From NCBI GenBank assembly GCA_018398765.1, contig JAHBMJ010000135.1:36586-60418 (forward strand): a stretch of 23,833 nucleotides of DNA. The letters run 5' to 3'. This document shows positions 4,895 to 23,725 of the stretch, one piece after another. Below the pieces are notes generated by a model. That model did not search any database, was not told where the DNA came from, and saw nothing but the letters and a program-made list of their open reading frames with translations. The position numbers and the translations under genes are program-made. This DNA comes from Chromera velia. Lineage: Eukaryota; Sar; Chromeraceae. Each line of letters starts with the position of its first letter. Position 1 is the stretch's first letter.

Positions 4895-5048
4895 ATGCGA
4901 CGAGTACCACAAATTATTCTGCTGTCGTCTTTGTTGTGTTTGGTCCTTCCCCTTATTGTTTCATCTGCAAGCAAGAGGGGGGCCAACCCAACGACAGGCA
5001 GACAGAAACTCGTCCATCCTCACAGAGCCGTCTCTCCGAAGCCCCCCC
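4895..5048 (+). CDS. Exon 1: signal peptide and basic linker
   Basis: The ATG at 4895 opens a basic N-terminus (MRRVPQ), then a hydrophobic core of Ile, Leu and Val (about residues 7-23) and an SSA-S cleavage-like site near residue 25, so the product enters the secretory pathway. The rest is a basic, proline-rich linker. The end is uncertain: GTAATG at 5049 gives the phase 1 needed by exon 2, while the better-looking GTAAGC at 5066 gives phase 0 and would need a weaker acceptor at 5219. Confidence 0.7.
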
Positions 5049-7031
5049 GTAATGCCTACCATCTGGTAAGCAGAGGAGAGAGAAATCCCCGATTCGAGGG
5101 GTGCCCTGCAGAGCCTGAAGCTGTTCATAGCTTCCAGTAAGACCAGCAGGGGAGCGCAGAGCAGAAGAAATTATCCGCGACAAGTCGCACTCCCCCTGCA
5201 GGCACCTCAGTATCCGAGGGCGACTGTGCCGTCTCCGAAATTGCACTGACATCCTTCGCAGATGGCAACCCTGCGGTCACATGCTATCCTGCCTCCTCGA
5301 GGTCCTGTGCTGGATGTGCAAAGTACGATGCTGCCAACTCAAAGTGCGAAGAATGCAAACCTGGTCAGCCACTGTGGTTGCAGTGATAGCCTGTCGCAGA
5401 ATGAAGATGCATGTGTATCCAGTTGCTTTTCAATACGTCCGAAATACCTGCACGAGTTTGTTTTTTTTTCTCTTTCACCTGCCACTCTGCCTGTCTGCCT
5501 TGCTGCTTCCCTGCCTGCCTGTCTCTGTTTGTGGCCGAGTGCCGGATTTGTTTGTTTGTTTGTTTGTGAATCGGTTTCATTCATTATCGCTGCCCGACTC
5601 TCAGACAGATACTGCCACCCGTCTCTGCCCCCGTCATTACCACCTACTCCTGAGCACCGTTCTCTTTTTCTTTTGCATTTCTGCCCCTTCGCCGCCGATT
5701 GATTCTCTGTCTTCTCTCCCTTTCTCCAACTAGGTCATGGCACAGTCTGTTGACTTCGACTTGTCAGACATCCAAACTGACGGATAAATGGCCTCGATCT
5801 TTCTTTCTTGCTTGCTTGTTTTTTTTTTTCGTTCTCCTTGCCTACACCTTCCTGCCCGACCTCGTTCTATGTCATCACACAAGGAGCAGACAGGACTCTG
5901 CAGTGCGTAATTCTTTCGCTGTTCCTTTCTTCCTCTCTTTTTTTTCGTCTATTGTTGCCCTAGCTCCCTTCTTTCTTTTGTCCAGGTTGGGTTTTTCAGT
6001 GCGCCCCCGGACAGACTGGGTGCTCGGAGGCCGTCTGCGTTGCCTGCGAGGACCTTCCCTTCGTGCAATCCGACCAGAAGACATGTGCAGACGTGTGCCC
6101 TGTGGCCCCGAAGGCTTTTTCCCAAGAGGAAATTGAAGGCTTCGCTTCAAAGGGAACCAGGGGGCTCACAGCCCTCGACGCTTGCTGTGCGTGTGGGGGC
6201 GGACTGAAGTCACCCACACCCTTTGCTTATGACGGTAGGTGTGGGGAGGGGGTTTCTTTGAGGTCAACGCACCCACCATGCATTCATCTTTCCTTTTCGA
6301 ACGGGAACCCTCCTCAGCGCTTCCTGTTTTCCCAGCACCGCTCTTCTCTTCTTCTGTTGGCGCCTACTGCAAAGGCGTGTCTCCATGAATGGCCAGCCAA
6401 TCTTCATCCTGCCCGCTTGCCATCCTACCAAACCTCCGCCCCCCCTCCGTGTGTGTGTATGTGTATGTATGCGTGTGGCTGCATGCGTGGGTACGCCCGT
6501 ATTCATATTCATATTCATACAGACAATGTGGATGTGGTGATCGGACAAGAAGTGATCCTCCACCCGACCCCCCGCACGGGCACTCACTACGCTGTCGGGA
6601 AGGGCTGCCAGCTTCACGAGATCGGATTGGCCATAGACTCCACCACAGGTGGGTGGGCTGGGTGTGCGTGCACGCGCGCGCGCGCGCGTGTGTATGTGTG
6701 TGGTCATTCGCTGTGCTATTCGCTTTGACGTTTGCCCCCCGCCCTTGTTCTTCGCTTATTCAGTCTTCTCTTCATTTTCCTCATCCTTTCTTCGGAAGGG
6801 AGGATTCGCACAGCAGTGTGCGCATCTCAATGACATGTGCCTACCTTCAAATCTGCCCCCTGCTGCCAACTCTGTCATCTCTCCGAATCGGTACTCGCAA
6901 CAGAAGTGTGCATGTGTGTGTCTGCGTGCGTGTGTTTTTGTGTCCATACATGTGTGTGTGTGTATGTGTGTGTGTGTGTTTGTTTATGTGCATGTGCGTG
7001 TGTCTGTATGCGTTTGTTTTTATGTGCATAC

Positions 7032-7062
<31 letters not shown>

Positions 7063-7813
7063 TGTGTGTATCCGTGCGTGTGTGTGTGTGTGTGTGTGTG
7101 TGTTTGTTTTTATGTGCATACTTGTGTGTGCGTGTGTGCGTCTGTCTGTCTGTGTGCTCGTTTGTGTGTATGTGTGCATCTGTGTGTGTGTGTTTGTGTG
7201 TGCGTCCCTGCTTGCAGGAGTCATCTCAGGCACCCCTGACAGAGAAGAGGGCACAACAGTGTCGTGCGTTGTCACTGCGGTGGAGAGTCGTTCTGAAGGT
7301 TTGTCTTTTTGTCTGTCAATCTGTCTGTGTGCATTTTAGGTTTGGTGTAATGATGGTCTTTAATCGCTTGGAAGCCTACAGGATCATTGCCAATTGAACA
7401 GTTGGACTTGTGCGCACGCCAAACATGTTTTTTCTCCCTTCGGCCTGTTTTTGTATTTTAGACCGACACAGGTAGTGCTCGAAAACCGTTTCTCCACCAT
7501 TGCTTTGCGTGTCCTCTCTCTACTTAATTTCTGTCTGGACCGACTCTGCCTGCAGGGCTCTACTACAACACAACGGTCCACATCCGGGCTCTCCCTGCGA
7601 CCTTCGGGCACAAAACCCTGGTGCTCAAGCGTCAGTCGGTAGATGACACAGGAATCATATCGGAATTCTCTCTGCAGTCGCAAAGTGACCTTCCATATGC
7701 GTGTCTGGATTACAGTCGAAACAGCTGGAGCACGCATGAAGGCGTCAATTGTGGAGGCAGGGGTTATTTCACCGACCGTCAGAATTCCCTTTTTTGCTTT
7801 CATAATCGATTTG

Positions 7814-7858
<45 letters not shown>

Positions 7859-8468
7859 TCTCTCCCTCCCTCCCTCCCTCTCCCTCTCCCTCTCCCCCCC
7901 CCCCTGTGTGTGTGTGTGTGTGTGTGCTCTCTGCATCCGTGTGAGAGCGTGCAGCGGGAGTGAAGCTGCCCTTGCTCGTGTCTCCCGGGTGGTCTGCCGA
8001 GAGGAGCAAGTTGACAATGCAATGCACGCCCTCGGTATCGTGGTTCAACGAGAACATGCTGACTGCGTATGGGAAACTGGAGGTGAAACCTTGGTTGAGC
8101 CGAATTGGGGGTGGCCTCTCAGAGGAGGGCCCTGGAGGCGGTACCCTGCAACAGATGGAAGGTTTGAACGGGATGACCAACGATATCCCCCTGACTGAAG
8201 TGCAAGCGACCAAATGCAGGTACATGCTTGGGCATGCGTCTTTTTGTCTCCGTTTATGTCTCAGGGTCACGTCGTCGTATGACTGTCTGACTGCAGCTGA
8301 TTGTCAACCAATCTGGTTGTGTGCTTCGGTTGAGTGTTTGCCTCCGCAACCGCAATTTTTCACCTGCCCATCCTTTTCAATGCGTAGGCAGGTGTGCGAC
8401 CCTATCAGTTATCCGGAAATGAGAACGGCCCCCTTTCATGTATATGTTCGGGCGTGCAGAGAGTGTCA

Positions 8469-8521
<53 letters not shown>

Positions 8522-9057
8522 CATGCAGAGTGGGCACTCACTTGAAAACAAGTGACTCCGAGCCTTCCGAGAAGACCTCTTTCTTCGACGTCGTCGTCAT
8601 TCGGACCTACCCCTGGCACGACATCGCATTCCCTTTTGGGGAGACCCTCAGACTCACACCCGGACTCCCTGTAAGGAGAGGCGCTCCCATCCGACCCTTC
8701 GACCCGAAAGTCAGTCGGTCGGTGGGTGGGTCGGTCAGCTGTCAGACGTGTTTGCGTGCGTCAGCTGGAGGACGGTACGAAGAGGACGGGCCAGGAGATG
8801 GAGTGGCGGCGGAGAGAGGGGGAAAGAGGGTGACGTTGTTGAGAGAAGTTCTGTCGAGTTGCGGGGAGGAAAGAAGAGGAGAGAGGCCAACCGAAATTCA
8901 CTGATCGACACACTCACAACTGCTCTTTCTCTGACGCACTGACCGACCCGCCCGCTCTGCCATTTCAGAGACGACAGAATGGGAGGGTCTTTCTTTTCTT
9001 TCTTTCTTTCTTTCTTTCCTTTCTTCCTGCTTTCTTTCTTTCTTTCTTTCTTTCTTT

Positions 9058-9089
<32 letters not shown>

Positions 9090-9093
9090 TCCT

Positions 9094-9137
<44 letters not shown>

Positions 9138-12100
9138 TCCCTCTTTCTTTCTTTCTTTCTTTCCTTCCTTCCTTCCTTCCTTCTTTCTTTTTTTCTTTCT
9201 TTCTTTCTTTCCTTCCTTCTTTCTTTCCTTCTTTCCTTCTTTCCTTCTTTCTTTCCTTCTTTCCTTCTTTCTTTCCTTCCTTCCTTCTTTTTTTCTTTCT
9301 TTCTTTCTTTCTGTCCTCGTCGAGTCGATCAACCGACGGACTGACCTGTTTTACAGCTTTTTTGCTCTCTTCTTCTTGGTTCTTTTTCCTCTGAAGGCCG
9401 TAAGCGCATAACCAACAATCCAAATATCTTTTTTTTTGAGAGAGTCCATGTGAATTCATGTACCTGTAGAAAGGCCCGACAGGCACACATCGCTTTCCAT
9501 ATTCTGACACACATTTCATCTCTGTTCTGACTTTGCCTGTATCACGGCTGCCTGTAGGTAGGTCTCACCGACCGTCACCTCCCCCTGAACCCGGTGTTCT
9601 TCACTCTCGCGTGCGAGCCCCAGCCCACAGGCGTCGTGCAACACGACGTCATCACCGGCCTCGTTTCATTCCAACCAAACTCCGCCAGGGCCCCGCCCTT
9701 CGTGCTCTTCTCCCTTGACCCCACCACGGGGGAAATCGGGGGGGTGACGGGAGGCAAGGACGAGGCGCTGGCAGCTCTGGATTTTCAGGTCTGTCAGTGG
9801 TCGGTGCATGGGTGCGGAGGTGAAGAACAACTTGGGGCGAAACGTACCTCCTATTTGTTTTCATACCGACCTCGACTCATTGACTAGAGCAATCTACTAC
9901 CCCAAAATAGGCTTGCATGCCAACCGTTAACTCATCCATCGCAAGTTGGTTTTGCTGTCTCTCAAACCATTCATTTTAATGCCTATCTGTGCGGGCGACC
10001 TTTTACAGGAATTTGGACTTCCTCCCTGCCGTTCTTCTCCCCTTCTCTCCCTATGCAGTACGATTCAACGACTGAGCGACTGCAAGCATCAATCAGCTGT
10101 CGCGTTGCCGCCCGGCAGCTTCTATACACCCCCGCGCAATCTCTCTCCAGCAGTCTCTTGACCCAAACTTCCTCCAAGACACAGTCGAAGCAAAAGGAGA
10201 AGGAGGAGGGAAGAAGCAAGAAAGGAACGGAAGGCAAACAAAAGGGCAGCTCAGACTCCTTCCTGGAATCGGAATCGGAATCCGTCTCTTCCTCTGCCGC
10301 TCCGATGACTCCCGGTGCCGTTCCTCTCGAGTGGCTCCTCTCGTATCAGACCTTCAAGACACCACCTGTTGGCAGGCAGTGAAGCTCAGGGAGCAGAGTC
10401 TCATTCTCTCTCCCTTCGTCGGCCATCCAGCAGATTTCCTCCGAGCGGGTGTGTCCGAGTCAGCCTGCAGGTCTGCGTGTTCTGCAGACCCCTCGTGTCC
10501 CTTTTTCCGTTTCGATAGCGGTTCAGGAGGGACATGCAAGAAAGGAAGGGTCAAGAACGCACTCGTGCACGGAACAGGGGGGGGGGACCTGGTCAGCATC
10601 ATGGCCAAAGCTTCGTGCGAGCCCATGACCGCGTGCGTGCAGCTGTACGTGAAGGGTTGGACTTGGTACTCCAGTACTTTCTGTCCTGTGGCACGTGATG
10701 CGTTGAGTGGGGGGGACTTTTTGTATGAGAGGAAAGGATTTTCCCCCACAGACGCGGGGTACCTTCTCAGGGCCTCTGCAGATGACGTACTGAGAGACCC
10801 TGAGGGAAAGTGCGGGAACAGAGACTGGATCATGAAGCAGGTGAGTAGTAAAAAGACGGAATGGAAGGGAGAGAAGAGGCACTTGGCGAAATATTCGAGA
10901 TCTGAACACGCATTTTTTCTCCTTTTTCGTGCAGTGTGTGCCTGCATATGTGCGCTGATGCAATGTTGCAGTGGAGTTATTCTCCCACTTTTCCTAACAC
11001 TTGCACACAGGTGAAATGGGCGCTTGAGCAAGCGGCCGGCTGGTTGTGGTCTTTGTGCACTTGTCAAGTTACTTCTTTCACCCTTCCTTTTATTCATCTC
11101 TGTGCTTTGTTCCTATGGTGGTTCAATGTTCCTGCATACGTGCAGGCGGACCCTGGGAGCGACTTTGTTGACGTTGAGAGTGGCCACTTTCAACTGAAGG
11201 GCCCGATCGTTGCTTGCATTCCCCACCTGGACCCATCGGAAGTTGCAGGGGCCTTCCATTCGTCCGAACGGTCTGGCGAGGCACTCATCTGGGGTCCTGG
11301 GGGAAGGGGGGGGTCCACCTCGACTAAGCTGTGGGACCTGAATAGAGCACCTAGGGGGTGTAGCTCTCCTCTGGGGGAGAGGGCAGGGAAGGAGGAGGAA
11401 GAAGAGCAGGCAGAGGAAAGGGGGGAGAGCGCAGAGAAAGAGGAGGAGGGGGGTGGAGAGGAGCAGAGCGCAGAGGTGTTTTGGTTTTCGGATGTTGACG
11501 ATCCTCGGGGAAGCTTCTTTCTCGATCCCTGCGAGTCCGTCAGTCAGTCAGTCAGTTAGTCTTTCGTCTGCAGACAGGCCGGCACTATGTCTCTCATTGT
11601 GTCTGGCTGTGGGTTGGTTGTGTAATTCACTTAGAAGTTCTTCTCTGTTCTCTTCTCTGGTTTGTTCGTTTCCCTTGTGGTTGTTTCTGCCCTTCTTCTC
11701 TCGCACTTCTGCTCACGGAATTTGACTGTGAGTGAATTGATTCGCTTAATTCTTTCATGCATGTGCATGGTCGAATGAATTCCTGCAAGCATGCAGCTGC
11801 TTCCCCGGTGAGTGGGGCAACAATCCACCCGTGTCCCCCGAAGCCTTCTCGATGCTGCCTGCGTCCGGACTTAACGTAGTCCCGGGCAACACCGCACAGC
11901 CCCAGATGATAGCCAGAGGGAGGCTCACATGCCTCCTGACCGACCTGATCCAATCGCTGCCCACGGATGAGGAGGATTTGTGCGCACAGCGGTGCAGAGA
12001 GACGAGTTTGTGTAACTACTTCTGGGTGGGACAGCTGTCGGGTATGCCCCAGTGCCGTCTGTACCGTTCGTGCGGGGCGTTGATGAGTGAGCCGAACACG

Positions 12101-13057
12101 GCGGCAGTGAGTGGGGGGACTCTCGGGACGTTGTTCGGGATCGTCAGACACGACGCCTGTCTGATTGCGGACCCGGAGGGGTACATGGCGGCGTCCAAGA
12201 GGAGGAAGCTCCTGACCTCAGTGGACTCTTCATCTCTGACTGGTCAGTCAGTCTGTCAATGAGGGTGTCTATCAGTCTTTCTGTCAGTCAGTCAGTTAGT
12301 TCGTATATCTGTCTGTATAAGAGCTAGTCTACATTCGCGCATGCAGAGAGTTGGGGAGCGGCAGGAAAACAAGGCATGCAGTCTAGATAGATCGTCCTGA
12401 GGTGCTGGATACCGCAGATCGTCTCATTCGTTCGTTGGCTGCACTTTTTCGCTGCATGCATGGTGAGTTGTTTCTGTCCTGCATGCATGTGGTTTTATCC
12501 TCGCTGTACATCCACCACACATCCCATCGAGATGCACCCCCGCAGTCACTGTCATCGATGCCTGCAGACCTGCATGAGTTGATCCCGCAAAGCGCCACTG
12601 ACAACCTCCCGGGAGGTGATCCAGCAAAGGCGATCGATGGGGTGCCGAACGCGGGTTTGTGGAGGGAATCCCCTTATGATTCGCCGGTCTCATGTGAACA
12701 CCCCAAATACATCCAGCTTGACATGGGTGGGGATGTGGACATGTCGGCAGTGAGGCTGTGGGGCTATTGGAGGGACGGCCGGACATACTGCGGCGTGAAA
12801 GTGGAGGTCTGCGGTGATGAGAGCTGCTTCAATGCTGGCAACGCCGCTGTTGTATTCGACAGGCCAGGGGATGGACCTGCAGAGACGGCAGATGGAAACT
12901 TGCTGCAGTTCACGAGGACTGTCAGAGGCCGATTCGTGCGCGTTTATATGGGACGAAGTACCAGCAACTCCGGTGCACACATCATAGAGGTGAAAGTGTA
13001 TGGTCCGAAGGGTCAGCTGAGGAGCGAGGGCTCGGGGTCGTGCGTTGGTCATGCACG

Positions 13058-13088
<31 letters not shown>

Positions 13089-13584: not shown

Positions 13585-16500
13585 TAGGTAGGCAGGCAGC
13601 CAGGTAGATAGGCAGACCGACAAACAGACAGTCAAGTAGCCAGACGCTCAGGCAGACCGACAGAGAGATGCCATGTAGTCAGTTAGAGAGACAGATACAC
13701 TGATACACAGACAGAGAGACAGAGAGACAAACACACAGATACACAGACAGACAGAGAGGTAGGCAGACAGACAGGCAGGTGGACAGACAGAGCAGACGGT
13801 CAGAAGGACAGACACACAGACAGACAGACAGCAAGGTAGACGAATCCAAGAGAAGAAATGCAGGCAGCAATTTGGGGCATGGGTGAGCAAGAAGACAGAG
13901 AGAAGACTTGCAGGGAGAGAGAGAGCGAGAAGAGACCAGAGAGAAGCCGAAAGTCAGAAAGCAAAACGACAGAGTGTTCGTAAGCCCTTTGTCTCTCTTC
14001 CCCCTTGTCTTTCCTTCCTGCGGTTTCTCTTCCTCATTCCCTTTTCTCCTACCTGTCTCCCTGACTACCAACCTGACTGCCGTCACATCTCGTGTCTTGG
14101 CCTTTCGTACGATAATGCTGTTTTTTCGTTTCTTCTTCAAGTGATGGCTGCGTGGTCGCGCTCCAGGCCGAAGAACAGTTGGAGTTCTTCTCTTCTCTCC
14201 CGTCGCTCCCCATCCTTCCGCTTTCTCTCAACCCCTCCCAAAAGAAAATTAGAATGCTAGAAGTTGTCACGAAGAACTCGAGCGAGCCTGCCCGCACATT
14301 TGCATGCATCAAGCAGTACGTTGATATGTTTGTGCGAAAGAAGACGAAGAGGCACACACACACACACACACAAACCAACCAACCATAGATTGAGATTCCT
14401 TCCTCACTGCCCTGCGTCCCTCCCCGTCTTCCTGCACTCCCTCCCTCCCGCATTCCTTCCCTGCGCACGCACACGCAGAAGTCGGAGCCGCAGACTCGGA
14501 GTTGACTTTTCGGTCTATGCCGGGGTACCACAACGCCAAAGTGGACACTCCGTTACATCCCATCCAGGGCGATACCTCTGTAGGGAACATCGACACCCAA
14601 GACATCCCCAACTACACCACTTTCATCTATATTGGCACTCTGGTTCCGCCCTCTACTCACAACTACGCATTCGAGCTGAAGTCTGATGACGCGGGGTTTG
14701 TGTACATAGACGGCGACCTCATGGTTGATAACGGAGGGAGACACGGCTGCGACGTACGTGGCTGAATGCACACACACATAAATGATTGATCGAGTAGATT
14801 CACTGTCGAAGTACACGCAGACGACAAAAGAAGTGACGCACACGGATGCAGACGTACAGAATCCGACCAAAACATCAACGCGGATACACGGACGAGACAG
14901 GCGAAATTGCTCGCCCCCTTTTTCGTTTCTTTCCTCTTCTTTTCGTTTGCCTGGACGCTTGAGGATGCACAGAGACAGAAGAAAGAAGACCGCACAACTT
15001 TCTCTTTTTTTAATTTCATTACTGCAGTTTCATCGCTTAGTCCTTTTCCAGATTCAGATAAAGGGAAAAAAAATAAGTTAGGACAGAAAAAATCAGCGAT
15101 GCCAGGCCAAATCTTCCCTTCGTGTTCATTCCTGCCCACACCATGTTTGTTTGCTGTGATGTGTTGACAGACACGATCGGGCAGCAAAACTCTCAACGCG
15201 GGCCAGACCCACGTTATTCAGGTGCAGTGTAGCAACGCTGCTGGGAATGGGTGCTGCGAATTCAAGTGGAATGCTGGGTCAGGGCTCCATTCTGACTTGG
15301 ACGCTTCGTGGAGGCCTCTTGGGGGTAAGTTCTTCCAGAATGGTCCTGCATGTGCATGCATGACAATTAAGGGAGGGAGGACATGACTGACAATTAAGCG
15401 CTATTGTTCTTTGTGTTGTTTGCTTTTGTGTGTAAGCTCGGCATTCTGTCAAACCAAGAAAGAAAAAACAGAATCAAAACGAGAGATCTGCAGAGAGAAA
15501 AACAATCAAGAAAAAGAATGGAAATTCAGCCGTCAGTCAGAGGAAGGGAAGGAAATAGTAAAATCGCATTTGGGCCAGAGCGAGACCCGGAGTGTGCATG
15601 TGTAAACGACAGAAGTGAAAAGGCTGAGTGCCTGCCTGTCGGAGGAGAGAAAGGAATCTAAACGAGTTCGGAGCCGTCCCTGCCGGCTCTCTCTCTCTGT
15701 ATGCTGAGTTGTGCTCTTCCGTCCTCTTTGACTCTCAGCGCAAAGTAACATGATGATGATGACATTGTATGGTGCCTTTGTGTTTCTCTCTACCTGTTTC
15801 ACTCAGCACTTTTTTCCGCTACGTTTCATTAGTATGTCGACAGCCAACGTTTTTAGAATATTATATTGCTTCCCCTCTTCCTGTCTTTTGTTCTTTGCAG
15901 GCTCCTCTGTCTCCCTTGAAGCGTCCGAGACCCAAAAAGAAAAGCAGGCGGAGACCCCCCCCCCAAACAATCATGGTAAACGAGTGTGCATGTGTAAACG
16001 AGAGAAAGAAAAAAGGGAAGAAGGCTGCATGAGTGCCGGCCCGTGGGAGGGCAGAAAGGAATCGGAGAAACAATTTTGGTTTGGAGCCTTCAGCTCATCT
16101 CCGTCCCTGCCTGAGGTCTCTCTCTGTATGCTGAGTTGTGCTCTTCCCTCCTCTGTGATTCTCTGCGCAAAGTCACATGATGACGACCCGTGCTCTCTGC
16201 CTGTGTGTTTCTCTCTACCTGTTGTACTCAGCACTTTCTTCTCTTCCGCTACGTTTTACTCATATTCGACAACGAACAGTTGTTGATTCTTATCTTGCTT
16301 CCTCTCTTCCTGCCTTTTACTCTTTGCAGGCTCCTCCGTCTCCCTTACAGCGTCCGGGACCGAAAAAGAAAAGCAGGCGGAGAAACCCCCCCCGAAAAAT
16401 CAGGGATTCGATGTTTTGACAGATGCACCGAAAGATTTGAGTTTGTTACATGCGAAACAGGAGAGGCGGGGCGACAACGCGCGAGAGAGAGCGGGTGAGT

Positions 16501-19500
16501 CTGAGACCGGCAGTCCTTTCCTCTCCTTCCTCTGGGGCCTGGATCCCGTCACATGCGCTGGCCCATTCGATCCCGACAGCTGCAGCTGCCCCCATGGAAA
16601 GGTCATTGTGGCAGGGTATGGGATGCAGTTGAACGTGAGGGGGGGATCGATGGAGGACGCTTTGTTAGTGACTTGCCCGATCGGACACCCAAGTTGCAAG
16701 ATGGACATCACGCCGCCTTCCCAAGGGACGGCAGAGGGTTTGGTCTATTTGTTGTGCGGCTCCACACTATTCCCTGGGTTAGAGCAGGGGACGGCAAAGA
16801 CCCGGGGGGACCAGGTCCAAGAGGCCAAGGTCAGCTGTTCTGCTGGAAAGAAGGTGGCGTTTGGGTTGGACTTTCAGTGGAGCAGTAAGCAAATCGATGC
16901 AGGGTGGATGGAGATGAGAGCCTGTGAAGCTGGTGAAGCGAGCTGCAGTGGGACAAAGAACGACAAACCAGGTCACGAGGAGAGGTTTGTTTGGGCCGTG
17001 TGTATGCCCCAAGGAACAATCGGACTGACAACCTTCTGGCAGGACACTATTCACTTCACTAGTGGTTCTCGTACTTTCAGCTGCCCGGATGGCAAAACCA
17101 TAGTCGCAGGGTGGAAGTGGCAGGGAAATCATATGGACCTGTCAGTGACGAGCTATTCGTTCAAGCCTGCAGAAATCGGAGGGACCAGTACGTTTTTACG
17201 AACGTTGAACTATGATGGGAATGATGATGGGTATATGTGGCTTGTATGTGCGGGCACCCCTGTGAACGGTGGTTGGTCTGACTGGAGTGGGTGGTCCGAC
17301 TGCACGAAATCCTGCGGTACGGGACTGAAAACCCGCAGCCGCACCTGCACAGAACCCGCCCCCTCCGATGGGGGCAGAGGGTGCACAGGAGACGCCACAC
17401 AGAGCTCTCCCTGCAACCCGGACCCCTGCCCCAAGAGCTCGGCCTCATCTGAGCCACCCAGCGTCAGTGAACTCTTCTCTCCCCTCTCCCCGATCGCGTG
17501 CAGGGGAAGGTTCAACTCGGGCACGTGCAGTTGTCCGGCAGGAAAGGTGATTGTGACAGGGGTGGCGCTACAAATAAACACGAGCGGAGAAGGGTATGGC
17601 AACAGGGTGAAGACGGAGCTGTGTCCGACTGGACAGCAATCCTGCCCCTTCCAATTGCTGGGCACGACCGCCGGAATTGTGAACGGAAAGTTTACTCTTT
17701 ACGACGAGCCGACAGACAACGACACGGGAATCGTCTGGTTGCTGTGTGGCGTGTCTGTAGTTCCGGGCCTCGACCAGAAATTGGAGAGGAACTCTTTGTT
17801 CAATCCCCCCATTGTCACATGTTCGTCTGGGAAGAAGATTGCGTTCGGGTTTCGCGCAGATATGCGCATCGATATTTCCCCGGACAATTGGAACTTCCGA
17901 ACCTGTGCTGCCAACCAACAAAAGTGTCAGACTGAAACGCGCTACGATGGCACTTTGCAGATGCCTCAGATCGTATACGCCGTCTGTCTTCCTGAGTCAA
18001 CCCCGGGTCTAAACAGTGTGTGGGAAGGGGCACAGCACAAAGACAGTGGAGAGGTGAAGCTGACGTGTCCAGCAGGCAAGAGCGCGATTGCCGGTTTCCA
18101 GTACCAACTAGCAGAGCCCAACGCGCATATCGCAACGCAGACCTTTAAGAAGATTCCGGTGGGCACGAAGGAATGGGCGTACGACCTTGCGAATCTGGGT
18201 GGAAATGAGAATGGGCTCCTCTGGATGGTGTGCAGTGACGACAAGATAGACGGAGGGTTGTCTGCATGGTCTGATTGGAGCTCTTGCTCCAGGTCGTGTG
18301 GTGGCGGGACGCGGGTCCGGACGCGTTCGTGCAATGAGCCCGCGCCGTTGAATGGCGGAGCAGATTGCGAGGGGGAAAGAACGATCAGTGAGAATTGCAA
18401 TCACTACCCATGTCCGGGTGGTGACTGCTTGTTTGAGAGGGAGATTCTGGAGTGTTAACATAAGCAGATGCTGGGAGGGAGGTCGGTGGAGGAGTGCGGA
18501 AAGTGTACTTACCTTCCGAAGGCAGAGGGAGACTTGAGGGCGAAGGCACGGAGTCTCCCTGATGAATTTCCTTGGGGGAGCGGTCTTAGGGTCTCCTGCT
18601 GGGAACAGCGTTACGCTCTAGTCGACAGACGACAAGGCACTTTTGGAGTGAGGGCGTTGGAGTTCGTGTGTGTGGATGGAGAATGGGTAGACTCGTGGGG
18701 AGGGAAGGGACTGGACGAGATCGAGTGTGCTGCCTGTGTTCAGGTCAGTATGGGGCTGTCGGATTTTGTGTAATGGTTTGTCAAAGTTCATGTTCCTTCT
18801 ACAACCTTTCTTCTTCTTTTTCTTGAAGACGAGCTCAGGCTGAATTAACTGTCTGATGGGTGCGTGAAGTCGAACCTGCTTCTCGTGACCGAAAGCTGTG
18901 CGCTAAATTGTGGGTGGGGGGGGGCGAACATAATCCTTCTTCTTTTGTTCATGAAAGCGCCACATCGCTCACTTGTTTCCCTGACGACTCCCTTTTGTCT
19001 CTCCATGCAGGTCGGCAAACCGTCTCTGTCTGTTCTGGAGTCACAAGGAATGGACTTCAGGTGAGCAAGTCCAGGGAAAGAACAGACAAAAAAAGAAAAA
19101 CAAAGAACTGAGTTGAGTTGAAAAAGGAAAATGCCACCGTGACCGTCTGCAGTATTTTTGACTCTTCTTTCGTTGCCCATCTAGCAGTGTCCTTGCAAAA
19201 ACTTCTGATCGCGCTAGTCTGTTGAGGGAATTCTATGCACATGCATGAACCGTCACAGGTACTTTCTGGACCGTCTGCCCGTCCAGATTGTCGCCCAGAC
19301 CACCGTAACAGACCCCCAGCGTATCGTGGCAGAGGGCGATACTCTCACAGGAACGAAGAGCCCCGAACTGCCCATGCACATCCCCGAGTCCTTCGTCTGG
19401 TTCACCAAGACGGCAGCAGCAGAGGGCAGGTTCTCGCTTGAAAATGCGGGAAAGGAGACCTGTCTGCAGGCGACAGACGCAGACCGAATTGACGTACGTT

Positions 19501-19741
19501 CTAGCGGTCACTTGCTTCCTTCATTTCTTGCTTTCCTTCTTTCTTTTGTATGCTCTCTCTCTCGCGCGCGCGTGCGCTGTCATAGACTGACATTGTCTGA
19601 CTGTTTGTCGGTCTGTCATTTCCACTCCATAGCTATTGATCTGCTGCGTACCGCCAAGGACATGAAAAGGTAAACATGTCTCAGTACTGCACGACCGAAA
19701 GCCAGCGCAGTTTGTTCGCTAGCTTTGTGTATATGTGTGTA

Positions 19742-19781
<40 letters not shown>

Positions 19782-22700
19782 CGAGAGAGAGAGTGAAATG
19801 CGAAGGGAGAAGAGTGAGAGGGCCTGTTGTAAAGATGGTACACGAAAACAGAAAAACCTTTTTTTGCGGCGCCCTCAACTGAGGCATTTCAGACAACCGA
19901 AGGAAGAGAAGCGCGGTTTCAAGAAAAGTGCACTCTCTGACTTTTCCAGCCGGCTCTCGCGATGTCTGTTTGCACGTCTTCGCTGGTCTCTCTGCATGTA
20001 TGTGGGTGTATGCATACGTACGTACATACGTATGTCAGTGTATACATATGTCTTTTTCTCTCGCAGCGCACAGCCACTGCGACGTGTTCGGAGTCCAACG
20101 CCCTCCAGCAGTGGGACCCGGACCTGCTTGTGGACATCGCCGCAGGGGAGGTGTCCAGATACGCTTCCACTCACGGATCTAGTCAGTCTGTCTCTCTGTC
20201 TGTGAGGAAGTATGCATGCATAAGTGTACATTTCAATGCACACGTGAGCCCTCCCCTTTCGGCATCAATTTCGACAGTCAGATCGCTGTGTGATACACAA
20301 AAAGTTTCTCGAACAGCGTGAACGGCACCTTCGGTGCTGCCCCGATTCTTTGTGCTCTGTGGTTATTTTTTCCCTTTCATTTCTCTTAAGTGCATTCAAA
20401 GCTGACTGCATCTCTCTATGTGAAACTCTGCCAATTAAATGGTTGCAGACCTCTGGTGGGATTTCTGGAACGGAAAGGCTCCCCAGGCCCTCTCGACTGA
20501 ACTGAAGTCCGAGGCACTCATCTCAGATGGGGCCCTAGTAAAAGGAGTGAAAATTGAAATGGGGGGCAACCCGACAGGCCCAGAGTTGACGGCAGATAAG
20601 TGGACGGCAGCGCCGGGATTTGACGGGTTTCAGGTTCTGGAGTTTCCGTGGAGCGTTAGTCATGATTCCGATGAGTGGACCGTGGGCTGCGGAGAGGGCA
20701 AGCTGATTGCAGGGATCAGCACGCATTCTGTGCAGAGCAGAGGAGGGGGGAAGTTCTCGACCACAAGCGGGAAGCTACGGTGCGTGGCTATGAAAACAGC
20801 CGCAGCCTGCGAGGTCCGTCGGTTTGCCTGTCTAGCAAAAGGGTAGGTGGGGGACGGTTGGTGTCTGGACGTTCATGACTAGAGTGAGATGCATGAGGTC
20901 TTCTCCTATACAGTGAATCGGCTTGTGCGTCGGTCGCGTGACGAAAAAGAAGTGCATGCCCACAAGCTCCTCTGTCTTTTTCTCTGGCTTTTTGTCAATC
21001 AATCGATCAATGACTTCGTTGATCGATCGAATCATCTGGCGTCAAGAAAAGAAAGCGCTTTTTCTGTTTTCTTTCCATGGACTCAGAAGCATATGCAGGC
21101 GTGAGTGAAAGGATACGCGTATCACCAAAAACACATTTTCTCTGTTTCATGACTGAGCGAGTGATTGCAGGATTCCCAAATTCAGTTGGGATCTGCCGAA
21201 TTCGAGGAGGGGTCGCCGATGGACGGTGCGAGCAGTGTAGGGTCCTCTATTTTGTATGAGAAGGAGGCGGGACTCAGGGGGTTCTCTGTGAAGGTGCTGG
21301 GCACAACGAAAGTCGTCACGGGAGTATTCACGTGTTGCCAGGCCGGGTCGCCTTCTGTGACTCTGCAGGTTGGGAGGCAGACGTTCCAAGGAGAAGCCGA
21401 CACTTGCTTTATGATTTCTGTCGCGTTTGGTTTAAACGAGATATTGATGAATGAAGCTCCATTGCATGGGAGGGGGCTGGGCGTTTTCCTCACGTCTTTG
21501 TATTCTGTACTTCGCATGTCATGTAATTCAGCTTTGTTTATTCCACCCTCATGCCTGTGAATGCATGATTATTGCGCATTGACATTTCGGGTACCCCCGA
21601 AATTAAATTGCCTGCAGCCCCTTCCTTTCGTGTCTAACCGTGGCTTTTTTCTGGTCCCAGAGAGCCTGGGTGTCTTCGAAAAGTGGGAAGGCGAATACTG
21701 TCCGACAGGACACGACGAGACAGGTCGACTGGAATTCACTCAGAGAGTCGCCTGGGGGAATCCTGTGGTGACCCCCTTTGATCCCTCCAAGCTCTCTTTC
21801 ATCTACCGTGTAGGCAAGTGGTGTGTGGACAGTGAAGGCACGACATGTCTTGCGTCTGCCGCAGTGAACCCAGCCTTGGCTCCTGTCGAGAGGCTCTCCG
21901 GGCAGCTGGACATTTTCGCTTCCTCCCCTGGTGGGCAGGAAGAGCACCAGCTGTCGGTGTCAACCATAGAGGACTTCGAAGTCGACAAGCCGAAAGAAAA
22001 GAGCACAGGGACCGAAATGATGCCCAGACCCCCCCCTCCAGTGCGACCTGCAAGGGTCGCGCTTGCTCCTCTAAAGGCCCTCTCAGACTACGACGTCGAA
22101 CAGGAATATCTGCCCTACTGCAGGAGCGCGGGGAACGCACAGAAGCCCTGGGCACTCGTCAAAGACCTGACGGACCTGGACTCGGCCAGTGTGAGTACAT
22201 CATTGATTGTATGGATGGTTCTGTGAGGTCAATTTCTCTTTTTCCGTCGCTCTCTCAGACACATGCACGCATGCACACGCGGAGGATCTCCTATTCTGGA
22301 AGGAGGAAGGGGCATTTTCCTGACTGAACACAAGCTGCATGTGCTCTCTGACCTGCTAGCCATAGGATGGCTCTCCTCGTTTGTGGACAGGAAAGGATTC
22401 GAAGATGGGACTCATTTCGCGTTCATGTGCATTTCCTTTTCAATCTTCACTCTCGCTTACACCCAGGTAGGCAAAGACTTCACCGATAACTTTATGTCCC
22501 CGCTTCTCCCTTTCATCCTGCCTGCCCGCCTGCCTGCAGGAAGACGGAGCCCTCGGGACGCAATTTGGGCAGCTGGCAAGTGAGGAAGACGATCAGGGGA
22601 AGCACCTGTGAGTCAGTCAGCTCAGCCTGTGTGTCCATCAATTAGGTTCCACTTCCCTCGATCCACCAATTTCTCGGTCATTGCGATCTTCTGTCTACGA

Positions 22701-23725
22701 ATTGCAATCGGCCGGTTGCTTCTTCTTCTTCCTCCTCCTCTTCTTCTTTTTTTTCTTCTTCTTTTTCTTCTTCTTTATCATCATCTTCTTCTTCTTCTTC
22801 TTCTTCTTGTTGAATCACGCGATGGATCGATCGGTGGCGTCTCCTTTCTTTTGAGGGGAAAATAGATGAAGGAACATTGGCGAGGAAATTGGATCTCTTC
22901 GTTCAAGAGACACTGCAGGTCCAGATGTCCTTGTCAAATGATTGTGATGGGCTTTTTATCTGCATGCATGCAGCCTCTGTCGTTCATCCTTTCCGTGTTG
23001 TGATATTTCCTTTCTGTCTGTACCGTCTTTTGTGGGCTTGCGTGAGCATCTCCTCCTGCCGCCCTAATTCTCTGTCACAAAAGCCGTTGCGTCATGTCCT
23101 CATGCTCCTCTTTCTGCCCCTCCCCTAATTTATCTTCTGAAGGTTCGGAGACGAGTACACCGGCCCGAACGCAGACGCATCCGAACAGGAGAAGATTGGC
23201 AGCAATCCTTGTCAGTGAATCAGCAGCTGTCCATGTGTTGGTTGTTTGTTTCTTTCTTGCTTGGCCAGAAAAGCAAGAACACGAAAGAGACAATAGGTTG
23301 CCTCGGAAAGGGGGTCTTTCATTGTTGGAGGATCGATGTGATTGATTCGATCAGCCCTTGGCTCTTTGCCTTAGTGGCGGATTCGGTTTGTTGGGTAAAT
23401 GTCTTGCTGCGTTTCTGCTGCACGGGTGGGTGAATGGAATGATCACAGGCGGGTACCAGTTGTACGGCAATCGTCGTCACACTGCGGAGATTCAGAGGAA
23501 GAGTTTCGTGAAGGTGCAAAAGTTTGGGAAGAAACATTCAGGTATGCTGGCTTTCTTTTTGGAGGGAGAGCAGGTTTTTCTTTCTGTTTCTGTCTAATTT
23601 GGGAGGAAAGAGAATTCGGGGCCTTCTCCCTGACTTTCAGTCCTCTGTTCTCTTCTGTCTTCTCTGTTCTCTGCGTGTGCGGGAATTGGTTTCTCCACAG
23701 AGGTGGTGTGCTTCTGTGCGTTTGT
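4895..23725 (+). CDS. Large secreted multi-domain adhesive protein, 29-exon model, 3' incomplete
   Basis: One split gene reconstructed by following open frames across GT-AG introns with matching phase. The product (about 2,725 residues in this window) starts with a signal peptide and carries a Cys-rich region, two PAN/Apple domains, an F5/8C-like domain, PA14, and two TSP1 domains, each preceded by a three-fold Cys-repeat domain. These families act in carbohydrate and protein adhesion outside the cell, so a surface, extracellular-matrix or secretory-organelle protein is inferred. Apicomplexan parasites combine similar modules in secreted adhesins, including the LCCL/CCp family, where discoidin and PA14 domains occur. 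I see no LCCL domain here, and no transmembrane helix or stop codon before the window ends. Weak joins are exons 1-3, the end of exon 6, 10315-10349, 14479 and 18418-18477. The same gene could be split in two at 18456 if the TAA there is real. Confidence 0.8.
5202..5363 (+). CDS. Exon 2: Cys-rich, furin/growth-factor-receptor-like
   Basis: Begins after a strong CCCCCTGCAG acceptor. It encodes [20 protein letters not shown], the CxxC...CxxC spacing of receptor-type Cys-rich repeats. I end it at 5363 because GTCAGC fits phase 1 into exon 3 and resembles other donors in this gene. Reading on would add about seven codons before a TGA at 5384. Confidence 0.65.
5986..6234 (+). CDS. Exon 3: Cys-rich region continued
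   Basis: Encodes [25 protein letters not shown] and a terminal ACCACGGG motif: about 13 cysteines in 83 residues, continuing exon 2. The donor GTAGGT is clear, phase 1. The acceptor could instead be the TTTTTCAG ending at 5999 (phase 0), which would drop only WVFQ but then lacks a phase-matched donor in exon 2. Confidence 0.8.
6523..6648 (+). CDS. Exon 4: unknown beta-rich segment
   Basis: Exactly 42 codons, phase 1 at both ends, so it could be gained or lost without a frameshift. Encodes [20 protein letters not shown] and then a segment with a single Cys ([10 protein letters not shown]). Alternating hydrophobic residues suggest beta strands, but I do not recognise the family. Acceptor CATACAG, donor GTGGGT. 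Confidence 0.85.
6669..7206. repeat. Intronic CG and GT dinucleotide tracts (intron 4)
   Basis: A CGCGCGCG run (6672-6688) leads into GTGTGT. From about 6907 to 7205 the intron is almost wholly TGTG with CATA and CGTG interruptions. Alternating purine-pyrimidine DNA like this can adopt the Z form. The long minus-strand frame here is a His/Thr artefact of the repeat. Confidence 0.9.
7218..7298 (+). CDS. Exon 5: unknown beta-rich segment
   Basis: 27 codons, phase 1 to 1, after a CTTGCAG acceptor. Encodes [12 protein letters not shown] and [15 protein letters not shown], which look like beta strands with one Cys. It continues the domain of exon 4. Donor GTTTGT. Confidence 0.85.
7556..7630 (+). 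CDS. Exon 6: unknown beta-rich segment, end uncertain
   Basis: Follows a GCCTGCAG acceptor in phase 1 and encodes [17 protein letters not shown] and HKTLVLK. A GTCAGT donor at 7631 gives phase 1, matching exon 7. The same frame stays open past this donor to at least 7777, where GTTATT (7763) or GTCAGA (7778) would also give phase 1, so a longer exon cannot be excluded. Confidence 0.65.
7816..7926. repeat. Intronic TC, CCCT and GT tract (intron 6)
   Basis: TCTCTC, then CCCTCCCT and a C run, then GTGTGT, ending about 30 bp before the exon 7 acceptor. The pyrimidine tract may serve the 3' splice site. The Arg/Glu minus-strand frame over it is an artefact. Confidence 0.9.
7955..8219 (+). CDS. 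Exon 7: unknown extracellular segment
   Basis: Starts after GCGTGCAG in phase 1 and encodes [19 protein letters not shown], an [10 protein letters not shown] stretch, and a Gly-rich loop, ending ATKC plus a split Arg codon (phase 2). Two cysteines. No family recognised. Donor GTACAT is somewhat weak. Confidence 0.8.
8477..8519. repeat. Intronic CATA/CA tract (intron 7)
   Basis: ATACATAC followed by about 18 CA units, running straight into the TGCATGCAG acceptor of exon 8. Confidence 0.9.
8529..8670 (+). CDS. Exon 8: unknown extracellular segment
   Basis: The acceptor GCATGCAG overlaps a TGCATGCA word. Phase 2 in, phase 0 out. Encodes [19 protein letters not shown] followed by [19 protein letters not shown], a beta-rich stretch continuing exon 7. 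Donor GTAAGG. Confidence 0.85.
8988..9313. repeat. 325-bp homopyrimidine TTTC array (intron 8)
   Basis: Nearly uninterrupted TTTC with TTCC variants, with only isolated G bases. The sense strand of the gene is pyrimidine. The opposite strand reads as a long Lys/Glu/Arg open frame with no biological support. Mirror-symmetric polypyrimidine of this length can form triplex (H-DNA). Confidence 0.95.
9558..9788 (+). CDS. Exon 9: Ig/cadherin-like beta segment
   Basis: 77 codons, phase 0 to 0. Encodes [14 protein letters not shown] and later [15 protein letters not shown]. The LDPTTGxI signature is typical of putative-Ig (He_PIG) and cadherin-like repeats, so this may be one such fold; confidence in the family is low. 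Acceptor CCTGTAG, donor GTCTGT. Confidence 0.85.
10059..10314 (+). CDS. Exon 10: charged Lys/Glu/Ser linker
   Basis: Starts after CTATGCAG in phase 0. After [20 protein letters not shown] it becomes a low-complexity linker rich in Lys, Glu and Ser, including [13 protein letters not shown]. The purine-rich sense strand contrasts with the pyrimidine-rich introns, supporting coding. To reach the PAN frame that follows, either a 35-nt intron (10315-10349, GTGCCG to TATCAG) is removed or there is a frameshift. Confidence 0.7.
10350..10840 (+). CDS. Exon 11: PAN/Apple domain 1
   Basis: Encodes CWQAVKL, then [19 protein letters not shown] and GGTCKKG. A leading Cys, a CxxxC pair about 40-50 residues on, a following Cys and an aromatic strand fit the PAN/Apple fold, which binds proteins or carbohydrate. 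The second half ([16 protein letters not shown]) continues with three more Cys. Donor CAG/GTGAGT, phase 0, is near perfect. The exact left boundary depends on the frame change at 10315-10349. Confidence 0.85.
11146..11534 (+). CDS. Exon 12: Glu-rich linker region
   Basis: Follows ACGTGCAG in phase 0. Encodes [20 protein letters not shown] and a [12 protein letters not shown] stretch, then a very acidic low-complexity linker of Glu, Gly and Ala (about 11371-11475), ending [19 protein letters not shown] end at 11534 because GTCCGT then gives phase 2 to match exon 13. The next candidate, GTCAGT at 11539, gives phase 0. Confidence 0.75.
11797..12242 (+). CDS. Exon 13: PAN/Apple-like domain 2
   Basis: The acceptor lies in AAGCATGCAG. 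Encodes [11 protein letters not shown], then [32 protein letters not shown] and [11 protein letters not shown]. The Cys spacing (CxxxC...C, later CxxxxxC) repeats the PAN/Apple pattern of exon 11, at about 148 codons. Ends ACT plus G at a GTCAGT donor, phase 1. Confidence 0.82.
12568..13011 (+). CDS. Exon 14: F5/8C (galactose-binding-like) domain
   Basis: Encodes AKAIDG, then [43 protein letters not shown] and IIEVKVYG. This order (DG near the start, a strand with LD-G, V.V..C, GR-VRVY, and a final E-KVYG strand) is that of F5/8 type C or F-type lectin-like folds, which bind glycans or lipids. The GTCAGC donor at 13012 gives phase 1, matching exon 15. A more distal GTCGTG (13037) would give phase 2. 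Confidence 0.85.
13063..13850. repeat. Degenerate CAGA/GACA array (intron 14)
   Basis: After TCTC and TGTG runs, about 700 bp of GACAGACAG, CAGGCAGG and AGAGAGAC units with a CA run at 13551-13580. It fills half of the largest intron (13012-14478). No coding potential on either strand beyond repeat artefacts. Confidence 0.9.
14142..14315 (+). other. Possible cassette exon inside intron 14
   Basis: Preceded by a TTTCTTCTTCAAG acceptor and followed by a GTACGT donor, this 174-nt stretch is open ([16 protein letters not shown], later ARTFACIKQ). It can be entered in phase 2 from a GTCGTG donor at 13037, but leaves in phase 2 while exon 15 needs phase 1. I leave it out of the main model. Confidence 0.3.
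14479..14753 (+). CDS. Exon 15: PA14 domain, first part
   Basis: Encodes [31 protein letters not shown] and [19 protein letters not shown]. The strand ending in Y-F-L-S-DD, then the YIDG-L-VDN turn, is diagnostic of PA14, a carbohydrate-binding beta domain found in adhesins and glycosidases. Long pyrimidine tract before the CACGCAG acceptor (phase 1). Strong GTACGT donor, phase 0, inside the domain. Confidence 0.9.
14754..15170. other. Intron 15, splits the PA14 domain
   Basis: 417 bp without a recognised gene or long repeat. The two PA14 halves join in phase 0 across it. The donor GTACGT and acceptor TTGACAG are good. Confidence 0.7.
15171..15324 (+). CDS. Exon 16: PA14 domain, second part
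   Basis: Continues PA14 in phase 0 after TTGACAG. Encodes [18 protein letters not shown] and [11 protein letters not shown], matching the family's strand of G-H-I-V-Y followed by a final W strand. 51 codons plus one base, ending at a perfect GTAAGT donor (phase 1). Confidence 0.88.
15590..16411 (+). repeat. Tandem segmental duplication of intron plus exon 17 / exon 18 start
   Basis: Unit A (about 15590-15981) and unit B (about 15982-16411) share GAGTGTGCATGTGTAAACGA at their left ends, TGTATGCTGAGTTGTGCTCT in the middle, CTCTACCTGTT further on, and the TTTGCAGGCTCCTC splice junction with the exon behind it. Indels make unit B longer by nearly 40 bp. The exons keep the same phase. Confidence 0.88.
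15901..15975 (+). CDS. Exon 17: duplicated 25-codon spacer
   Basis: Encodes [18 protein letters not shown] plus a short Pro/Asn tail, a hydrophilic spacer. It is a clear copy of the first 25 codons of exon 18, and the intron before it is a copy of the intron before exon 18, so the exon arose by tandem duplication. Phase 1 to 1 keeps the frame. Acceptor TCTTTGCAG, donor GTAAAC. Confidence 0.85.
16330..18417 (+). CDS. Exon 18: two [three-fold Cys-repeat + TSP1] modules
   Basis: The largest exon, about 695 codons. After a polar spacer it has two tandem modules. Each starts with a Cys domain (16554-17249 and 17499-18233) built of three sub-repeats of C-x2-GK followed by a hydrophobic strand and, about 40-60 residues later, a [WY]-x-[LV]-C end. 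Then comes a TSP1 domain (17268-17429 and 18252-18413). Both TSP1 copies have WSxW, and CTKSCG or CSRSCG, which fit the known C-mannosylation and O-fucosylation sites. The three-fold repeat recalls the beta-rich C-terminal domain of apicomplexan perforin-like proteins; no MACPF domain is present in the window. The frame meets TAA at 18456, so a donor at 18418 or 18421 (phase 1) is assumed. Confidence 0.9.
16554..17249 (+). other. Three-fold Cys-repeat domain A (APC-beta-like)
   Basis: Protein domain inside exon 18. Three sub-repeats begin [23 protein letters not shown] and [11 protein letters not shown], and end VYLLCG, VWAVC and MWLVC. Internal three-fold symmetry with paired cysteines is described for the C-terminal membrane-binding domain of apicomplexan perforin-like proteins. 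The match here is by pattern only. Confidence 0.6.
17268..17429 (+). other. TSP1 domain A
   Basis: [19 protein letters not shown] opens the domain with three Trp spaced WxxWxxW and the CTKSCGTG O-fucosylation-type site. It continues with [15 protein letters not shown] and CNPDPC. Six cysteines and about 54 residues are standard for a thrombospondin type 1 repeat. Confidence 0.95.
17499..18233 (+). other. Three-fold Cys-repeat domain B (APC-beta-like)
   Basis: Second copy of the domain. Sub-repeats begin [23 protein letters not shown] and [11 protein letters not shown] and end VWLLCG, VYAVC and LWMVC. It is diverged from copy A outside these anchors, so the duplication is not recent. Confidence 0.6.
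18252..18413 (+). other. TSP1 domain B
   Basis: [19 protein letters not shown] opens the domain; it keeps the last two Trp of the WxxWxxW set and has a CSRSCGGG site. It continues with [14 protein letters not shown] and CNHYPC. Six cysteines; clearly paired with TSP1 domain A. Confidence 0.95.
18478..18743 (+). CDS. Exon 19: sushi-like Cys segment
   Basis: Encodes [40 protein letters not shown] and IECAACVQ. C-x-n-C-x-DGEW-x-n-C resembles a sushi/CCP module, but spacing is loose. The left boundary is uncertain: an acceptor at GGGAG/18478 restores phase 1, while the better AAGCAG/18468 is phase 0 and lacks a matching donor. Right end GTCAGT, phase 0. Confidence 0.7.
19011..19060 (+). CDS. Exon 20: short connector
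   Basis: 50 nt, phase 0 in and 2 out, encoding [16 protein letters not shown]. Strong CTCCATGCAG acceptor and CAG/GTGAGC donor. No domain by itself; it joins exons 19 and 21 in frame. Confidence 0.85.
19259..19493 (+). CDS. Exon 21: unknown extracellular segment
   Basis: Phase 2 in, phase 0 out. Encodes [36 protein letters not shown] and [14 protein letters not shown]. Contains one Cys and alternating hydrophobic residues. Family not recognised. Donor GTACGT. Confidence 0.85.
19494..20066. other. Intron 21 with GT and GA tracts
   Basis: 573 bp containing a CGCGCG patch (19562-19570), a GT run followed directly by a GA run (19735-19796), and a TACGTACATACGTATG palindromic patch (20014-20030). 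No gene recognised. A 37-nt splice-bounded stretch at 19633-19669 has the wrong phase to be included. Confidence 0.7.
20067..20181 (+). CDS. Exon 22: unknown extracellular segment
   Basis: Starts after TCTCTCGCAG in phase 0. Encodes [19 protein letters not shown] and [19 protein letters not shown]. Ends phase 1 at GTCAGT. Joins smoothly to exon 23. Confidence 0.85.
20449..20813 (+). CDS. Exon 23: Cys segment resembling one APC-beta sub-repeat
   Basis: Encodes [15 protein letters not shown], then [31 protein letters not shown] and [17 protein letters not shown] echoes the C-x2-GK-x3-G anchor of the three-fold repeat in exon 18; a dermatopontin-like reading is also possible. I end at GAG/GTCCGT (phase 0). 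The alternative GTAGGT near 20843 gives phase 2, which does not match exon 24. Confidence 0.75.
21171..21429 (+). CDS. Exon 24: unknown beta-rich segment
   Basis: Phase 0 in after GATTGCAG. Encodes [52 protein letters not shown] and TCFMISVAF. Looks beta-rich with three Cys. The GTTTAA donor (phase 1) is weak but is the one that fits exon 25. Confidence 0.75.
21661..22190 (+). CDS. Exon 25: unknown segment with Pro-rich linker
   Basis: Encodes [44 protein letters not shown], an acidic stretch, a Pro run ([12 protein letters not shown]) and [14 protein letters not shown]. The first part has paired Cys typical of secreted proteins. The Pro-rich part is probably a flexible linker. Strong AGT/GTGAGT donor, phase 0. 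Confidence 0.85.
22540..22607 (+). CDS. Exon 26: short acidic connector
   Basis: 68 nt, phase 0 in and 2 out. Encodes [20 protein letters not shown] plus KH. TGCCTGCAG acceptor and GTGAGT donor are both good. Joins exon 27 with the split Leu codon CT/G. Confidence 0.82.
22608..23142. other. Intron 26 with CTT tract
   Basis: 535 bp. TTC/CTT triplet repeats with CCT and TTT variants occupy about 22718-22808. A 53-nt splice-bounded stretch at 22866-22918 is considered separately as a possible poison exon. No other gene signal. Confidence 0.75.
23143..23210 (+). CDS. Exon 27: short connector
   Basis: 68 nt, phase 2 in and 1 out. Encodes [19 protein letters not shown] and SNP. Acceptor TTCTGAAG (AAG) after a pyrimidine stretch; donor GTCAGT. 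The phase match on both sides supports it. Confidence 0.8.
23449..23541 (+). CDS. Exon 28: basic segment
   Basis: 31 codons, phase 1 to 1. Encodes [17 protein letters not shown] and [13 protein letters not shown], a Lys/Arg-rich stretch unlike the acidic exons before it. No domain recognised. Acceptor GATCACAG, donor GTATGC. Confidence 0.8.
23701..23725 (+). CDS. Exon 29: small putative exon at window edge
   Basis: Follows a strong TTCTCCACAG acceptor. In phase 1 it encodes EVVCFCAFV before a GTGAGT donor at 23726 (phase 2). It is tiny, so it rests only on splice-site quality and phase. The gene must continue to the right. Confidence 0.45.

Follow-up and report, generated by a model that had tools for sequence, protein, structure and literature searches.

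The question raised by this locus is whether a 23,833-nucleotide stretch of Chromera velia DNA (hereafter the window) encodes, as a preliminary description proposed, one long secreted protein in which PAN, F5/8C, PA14 and TSP1 modules follow one another in an unusual order, and to which proteins of parasites such a product would be related. An exon model was assembled manually, with open frames and GT/AG sites as guides, and was corrected once. The exon phases were consistent from E1 to E24, with three doubtful joins (E1/E2, E10/E11 and E19/E20); with these three spliced out, the coding model comprised 2508 codons and no stops. An additional candidate exon, E15 (14142-14319), forced a phase clash and is probably intronic; it was dropped because E14 (to 13011) joins E16 (14479) in phase without it. 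The start at 4895 gives a sequence that by eye resembles a signal peptide. The features of the locus are as follows.

4895..5137, + strand: E1, beginning of the coding sequence; resembles a signal peptide at its start and runs to an in-frame TAA, with a similar-looking open start in the paralogue on contig C62
5138..5140, + strand: in-frame TAA; C62 seems open there (correspondence by eye); the alternative is a position within an intron at 5066-5164
5141..9788, + strand: E2-E9, N-terminal part; Cys-rich region with a weak He_PIG (Ig-like) match, collinear with C62 36026-32014
10059..10840, + strand: E10/E11, first PAN-like domain; frame shifted by a 13-nt net difference from C62 near 10330-10370
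11146..11534, + strand: E12; acidic linker at its end, counterparts in relatives
11797..12242, + strand: E13, second PAN-like domain; its last 10 residues mark where the exchangeable middle is entered; donor GTCAGT in phase 1
12568..13011, + strand: E14, F5/8C-type (discoidin-like) domain; phase 1 on both sides, no C62 counterpart
14479..14753, + strand: E16, PA14 exon 1; phase 1 in
15171..15324, + strand: E17, PA14 exon 2; phase 1 out
15901..15975, + strand: E18, short linker exon (75 nt); phase 1 on both sides
16330..18743, + strand: E19 and E20; one frame except for the TAA at 18456-18458, enclosing both APCbeta-TSP1 units and leading into the C-terminal constant part
16548..17252, + strand: APCbeta-like domain 1; triple repeat, Cys counts 6, 4 and 2
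17277..17429, + strand: TSP1 domain 1 (Pfam TSP_1)
17493..18242, + strand: APCbeta-like domain 2; triple repeat, Cys counts 6, 4 and 2
18261..18413, + strand: TSP1 domain 2 (Pfam TSP_1)
18456..18458, + strand: in-frame TAA, directly after a 13-residue motif identical in C62, whose frame stays open
18459..21368, + strand: E20-E25, C-terminal constant part; rich in Cys, weakly matching ricin-type lectins, E25 end approximate
21661..23541, + strand: E26-E29, further C-terminal exons with C62 counterparts; E25/E26 join provisional, and N follows the window

Searches of the genome covered 177,833,721 bases in 4040 contigs. On the minus strand of C62, from 36026 to 22561, residues 79-2571 of the window model were matched in order (tblastn, 20 pieces, 36-71% identity), and C62 also has counterparts of E26 (two pieces, 46% and 71%), E27 (70%), E28 (57%) and E29 (47%). 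Model residues 1086-1447, which hold the F5/8C-type domain, the dropped E15, PA14 and the linker, were without a counterpart in C62, and E1 gave no match to C62 by BLAST. This collinearity on one strand and in one order, which extends through E26-E29, bears out the proposal of one long gene; no sign of two or more separate genes was found as far as the paralogue permits a test. That the gene stops at 18458 and is followed by another was ruled out, as C62 reads on through the same motif. The limit of the gene given previously, 23725, was not sustained: it is no supported gene end, the 3' end passes into N (stretches of about 5 kb flank the window on both sides), and the C62 counterpart continues past E29 as a long open frame, helix-rich by eye. 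Pfam detected nothing above cut-off in that helix-rich stretch or in E26-E29, and comparison of the end pieces of C62 with the region 3' of the window, much of which is N, yielded two weak matches, neither of them credible. Upstream of the gene, long arrays of CATT/CATC-type short-unit repeats occupy window positions 1340-3211 and 3744-3909.

Between the window and C62, 38.4, 32.9 and 62.2% of the first, second and third codon positions differed over 2115 aligned codons (E14-E18 were left out, and E1, E10 and E21 yielded no aligned codons), and 172 of 545 four-fold sites were identical. These values therefore point to an old duplication with selection at the protein level since; judged by them, the window copy was long under such selection.

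As assembled, the window copy is nevertheless not an intact gene, and the single uninterrupted reading frame implied earlier was not found. The TAA at 18456-18458 falls inside a stretch open in C62, and in a further such stretch, near 10330-10370, the distance between two matching motifs is 13 nt (net) less in the window than in C62, which puts the frame out of register. The TAA at 5138-5140 is less certain than these lesions, its correspondence with a seemingly open stretch of C62 consisting of a short motif recognized by eye. Secretion of the product is probable. The copy is probably a recent pseudogene, or else carries sequence errors; any inactivation would be recent, coming after long selection at the protein level, because so few lesions are found in about 2500 codons. 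The alternative that the gene is intact and expressed, the interruptions being short introns or errors of a draft assembly, is rather unlikely but keeps some weight. It would account for the absence of stops outside the three doubtful joins and for the stretch at 5066-5164 (99 nt, donor GTAAGC, acceptor ending GCAG), removal of which keeps the frame, and the assembly is a shotgun draft (PMC4501334). For the other two joins, however, introns of 35 and 57 nt would have to be assumed, with GTGCCG and GTGACT as donors, whereas the remaining introns, the doubtful first one (96 nt) aside, measure at least 159 nt; both would remove coding sequence conserved in C62, and a net difference of 13 nt is atypical of a base-call error.

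For domain assignment the window protein was scanned against Pfam in nine pieces, and matches at E ≤ 1 were considered. The two TSP1 modules of the preliminary description were recovered as two stretches of TSP_1 (PF00090; 3.2e-20, 72.5 bits, above the Pfam cut-off), and its PA14 module as PF07691 (9e-11, 42.2 bits against a cut-off of 24, profile positions 41-133 of 147). The PA14 exons also matched PDB entry 6QDI (5.1e-9), and PA14 matches in the genome numbered three, that of the window included.

The other two assignments stood in part, since both domains score below the curated cut-offs. F5_F8_type_C (PF00754) reached 25.0 bits (2.3e-5), and because this is below the cut-off of 28.2, E14 is called F5/8C-type and not a member on its own score. 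Its closest relatives in the genome, arrays on C2302 and C3471 with up to 56% identity, score 28.3 and 28.2 bits and thus lie at the cut-off; a PDB search with the exon gave one chance match (0.83). Both arrays belong to long open frames and have a TSP1 match close by, and C2302 has in addition a member of the family described below about 16 kb off, which makes it a possible source of the F5/8C module of the window. E11 matched PAN_1 (PF00024) at 0.0013 (19.0 bits, cut-off 21.4) and E13 matched PAN_4 (PF14295) at 0.009 (16.5 bits, cut-off 27); PAN was likewise below cut-off in all five pieces taken from relatives. A profile of E13 (eight family copies, window included) gave six PDB matches at E ≤ 10, all of them apple/PAN proteins (five factor XI and one Eimeria MIC5), with a best E of only 0.12. 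Both domains thus appear PAN-like rather than PAN on their own scores. Below cut-off were also He_PIG in the N-terminal part (5.7e-4, 20.7 bits, cut-off 24) and RicinB_lectin_2 in the C-terminal constant part (E = 0.032), and a PDB search with the latter part gave no match at E ≤ 10. Elsewhere, 25 TSP1 matches follow one another on one strand over about 15 kb at C215:35724-51082, possibly in one giant TSP1 protein.

The module order that had been regarded as unusual is present, but as one form within a family that exchanges its middle, since C62 has neither F5/8C nor PA14. Family members were counted by hand from matches at E ≤ 0.001, with the window included, and the counts are lower bounds. 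Matches to the PAN region, a query whose acidic low-complexity stretch may favour weak matches, were present in at least 19 contigs and matches to the C-terminal region in at least 19, with at least 17 shared and at least 21 in the union. In all 17 shared contigs listed the two regions were on the same strand and in the same order. Shared sequence identifies the PAN-like and C-terminal regions as constant parts in these 17 contigs, and the N-terminal part as constant for C62 only. On C3829 and C2553 the end of the PAN-like region (KRRRYLTSED and KRRKFLTDID, respectively) runs into the C-terminal motif in one open frame, leaving no room for a module between the constant parts; this junction locates the point of exchange.

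The middle was read in seven loci (the window, C62, C1288, C3541, C541, C3829 and C2553), the other 14 of 21 showing at most single exons. That of the window holds F5/8C, PA14 and two APCbeta-TSP1 units, and that of C62 the two units only. On C1288 it contains a Lectin_C domain (4.5e-8 for two pieces joined with X; 9.1e-4 genome-wide), a dermatopontin-like repeat and TSP1, and on C3541 Lectin_C (3.5e-10 for two pieces joined with X; 6.2e-8 genome-wide), F5/8C and TSP1. C541 has TSP1, a fascin-like stretch (0.026, below cut-off) and, by eye, a PAN-like stretch (PAN_2 at 0.089 when one piece was scanned, but no match for the joined piece). According to the search results, Lectin_C and TSP1 also follow the PAN region on C1199, for which no C-terminal match was among those listed, and TSP1 is present on C305 and C3873. 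Among the 17 shared contigs listed, a TSP1 match lies between the constant parts in seven; in the other ten, C3829 and C2553 among them, the gap contained no match to TSP1, Lectin_C, F5/8C or PA14. Among the relatives of the window F5/8C exon at E ≤ 0.001, the F5/8C match of C3541 does not appear; this domain type may therefore have been acquired independently by the two members. Stop codons interrupt several family matches elsewhere, which may reflect introns or decay. At C305:40889 and C3590:6532 the open frames around family matches run to 3426 and 2664 codons, far beyond those of the other PAN-region matches, a length that runs of N read as open could explain.

Splice sites and their phases were read from the sequence alone. 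The window F5/8C exon, the pair of PA14 exons and the linker exon each run from phase 1 to phase 1, phase 1 being common in the window gene generally. The entry donor of C62 (by eye) and the exit and TSP1 acceptors of C1288 are also in phase 1. The TSP1 acceptor and candidate lectin donors of C3541 are in phase 0, and the entry point is intronless in C541, C3829 and C2553. The linker exon with flanking intron (15674-15973) is duplicated in tandem at 16101-16402, with 82.7% identity over 306 alignment positions. Exon shuffling via phase-1 introns is the likely route by which the window member gained its modules, although the phases in its relatives are mixed. The question of why exon shuffling should be "restricted to Metazoa" has been raised by Patthy (PMC8001218); to class 1-1 exon shuffling as a Metazoa-only process, a family with constant parts and one exchange point could be an exception, provided that the exons are borne out by transcripts.

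We consider it somewhat probable that the locus belongs to a Chromera family of giant modular proteins, with constant parts and an exchanged middle, that act in adhesion. Its members would probably be secreted, with the constant parts serving as scaffold or anchor and the exchangeable middle binding the target. Going by the general properties of their families, F5/8C and PA14 would bind glycans or lipids and TSP1 would form a rigid spacer, while the APCbeta-like domains would, by homology with Toxoplasma TgPLP1, bind phospholipid membranes. The role would be one in attachment or recognition, and attachment rather than pore formation is suggested because no MACPF domain was found at the locus. 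It is unlikely, by comparison, that the family consists of structural proteins of a cell or cyst wall whose modules crosslink wall polymers. Carbohydrate-type modules and Cys-rich constant parts would suit a wall, and Cys-rich proteins of the oocyst-wall type were reported in Vitrella (Woo et al., PMC4501334), but the exchange of binding modules at one point, together with APCbeta-like domains, would suit target binding better. The earlier view that the locus is one large modular gene, probably for a secreted protein, in an apicomplexan relative that is likely free-living is upheld, with a window copy that is not intact as assembled.

The 700-750 bases 5' of each TSP1 encode three repeats for which no Pfam family scored above cut-off; DUF5122 gave 0.0029, below cut-off and with no stretch passing. 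A profile of four units, two from the window and two from C62, matched the PDB at 6.8e-25, 1e-24, 5.4e-16 and 1.1e-10 and nothing else. The best match was to TgPLP1 (5OUO), over profile positions 15-231 of 237. Dermatopontin or VMO-I, considered as a possible identity of the triple repeat, was ruled out by a PDB profile search. At E ≤ 10, window unit 1 alone retrieved four distinct PDB sequences, each of them perforin-like/MACPF (TgPLP1, 1.9e-17 and 5.3e-17; Plasmodium, 2.4e-6; 9XDA, 0.012), with a best stretch at residues 6-163 of 241, mainly repeats 1 and 2, and the reversed unit 1, used as control, retrieved none. Unit 2 alone gave 11 matches, namely TgPLP1 (3.8e-7 and 9.1e-7), 9XDA (0.0012) and eight at chance level. 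In each of the four units repeat 1 contains six Cys (four matching and two extra), repeat 2 four and repeat 3 two, and because repeat 3 has two Cys, not four, the domain is named APCbeta-like.

These matches make the block preceding each TSP1 a homologue of APCbeta, the tail with which apicomplexan perforin-like proteins bind membranes. The preliminary description did not contain these two domains, nor the family or the duplicated linker exon, and the link to parasites is stronger, on this homology, than was thought there, because the blocks formerly left unassigned are APCbeta-like. That the triple repeat is instead a generic Cys-rich beta domain, for example dermatopontin-like, with a convergent likeness to APCbeta is very improbable: a dermatopontin-like repeat does occur in the middle of the relative on C1288 (DERM E = 0.03, below cut-off) and the third repeat is short of two Cys, but the alignment to TgPLP1 spans most of all three repeats, the distinct PDB sequences matched are exclusively perforin-like/MACPF with an empty reversed control, and the repeats are explained by no Pfam family.

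APCbeta has been described as three repeats forming a beta-prism that binds phosphatidylethanolamine (PE) and inositol lipids, or phosphatidylserine (PS) and PE (PMC5943054, PMC6294395), with four conserved Cys in each repeat (PMC6294395, PMC5618198, PMC7522308). It is important for TgPLP1, the pore-forming protein of Toxoplasma host-cell exit (PMC6294395, PMC7522308), in which mutation of a hydrophobic Trp-tipped loop of this domain blocks function (PMC5943054, PMC6294395); that loop could not be placed in the window units. The domain has been called "unique to the Apicomplexa" in a review (PMC7522308) and "apicomplexan specific" (PMC6294395), and among the open-licence papers listed none dealt with APCbeta outside perforin-like proteins or in Chromera.

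The window units agree with the APCbeta of TgPLP1 (PDB 5OUO and 6D7A, the latter at 1e-24) in their three tandem repeats and in the four Cys with matching spacing in repeats 1 and 2, and with that of a Plasmodium perforin-like protein (PDB 7PLN, "sporozoite micronemal protein essential for cell traversal") at 5.4e-16 over positions 14-201. They differ from both in repeat 3 with its two Cys, in occurring as two copies that alternate with TSP1, and in lying at a locus without a MACPF match; both, moreover, are from parasites and the window is from a chromerid alga. From the C62 paralogue, which has the constant parts in the same order and both APCbeta-TSP1 units, the window differs in its F5/8C and PA14 modules and in being interrupted where C62 is open. 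With the micronemal adhesins TRAP and MIC2 it shares TSP1, the TSP1 part of a separate profile also matching MIC2 and TRAP entries, but no vWA was among the Pfam matches at E ≤ 1 in the nine window pieces. Woo et al. (PMC4501334) reported TSP1 expansions in chromerids and MacPerf proteins with WSC and DERM; section 55 of that paper mentions neither this family nor APCbeta outside MacPerf.

No MACPF match was obtained in the nine window pieces by Pfam or at the locus in the genome-wide search, and the predicted window protein is not an apicomplexan perforin-like protein. At E ≤ 1 such APCbeta-like domains were found genome-wide only in the window and C62, two in each, by a single-protein search that can miss distant copies, and of 42 pattern matches to the APCbeta-like profile in bacterial and archaeal genomes none was confirmed. 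We tentatively propose, as one possible history, that APCbeta was first an adhesion module of a free-living ancestor, without MACPF and paired with TSP1, and was joined to MACPF later, in apicomplexans, while the Chromera family came to shuffle binding modules into one exchange point, at least partly via phase-1 introns. An APCbeta homologue beside TSP1 and without MACPF in a free-living relative would offer a testable route for the assembly of a parasite tool. No paper with both MACPF and Chromera velia was found in the open-licence literature. In the genome, MACPF matches were confined to C334 (three) and C1659 (one), and the three on C334 lie close together at 37672-40755, one of them containing a TGA.
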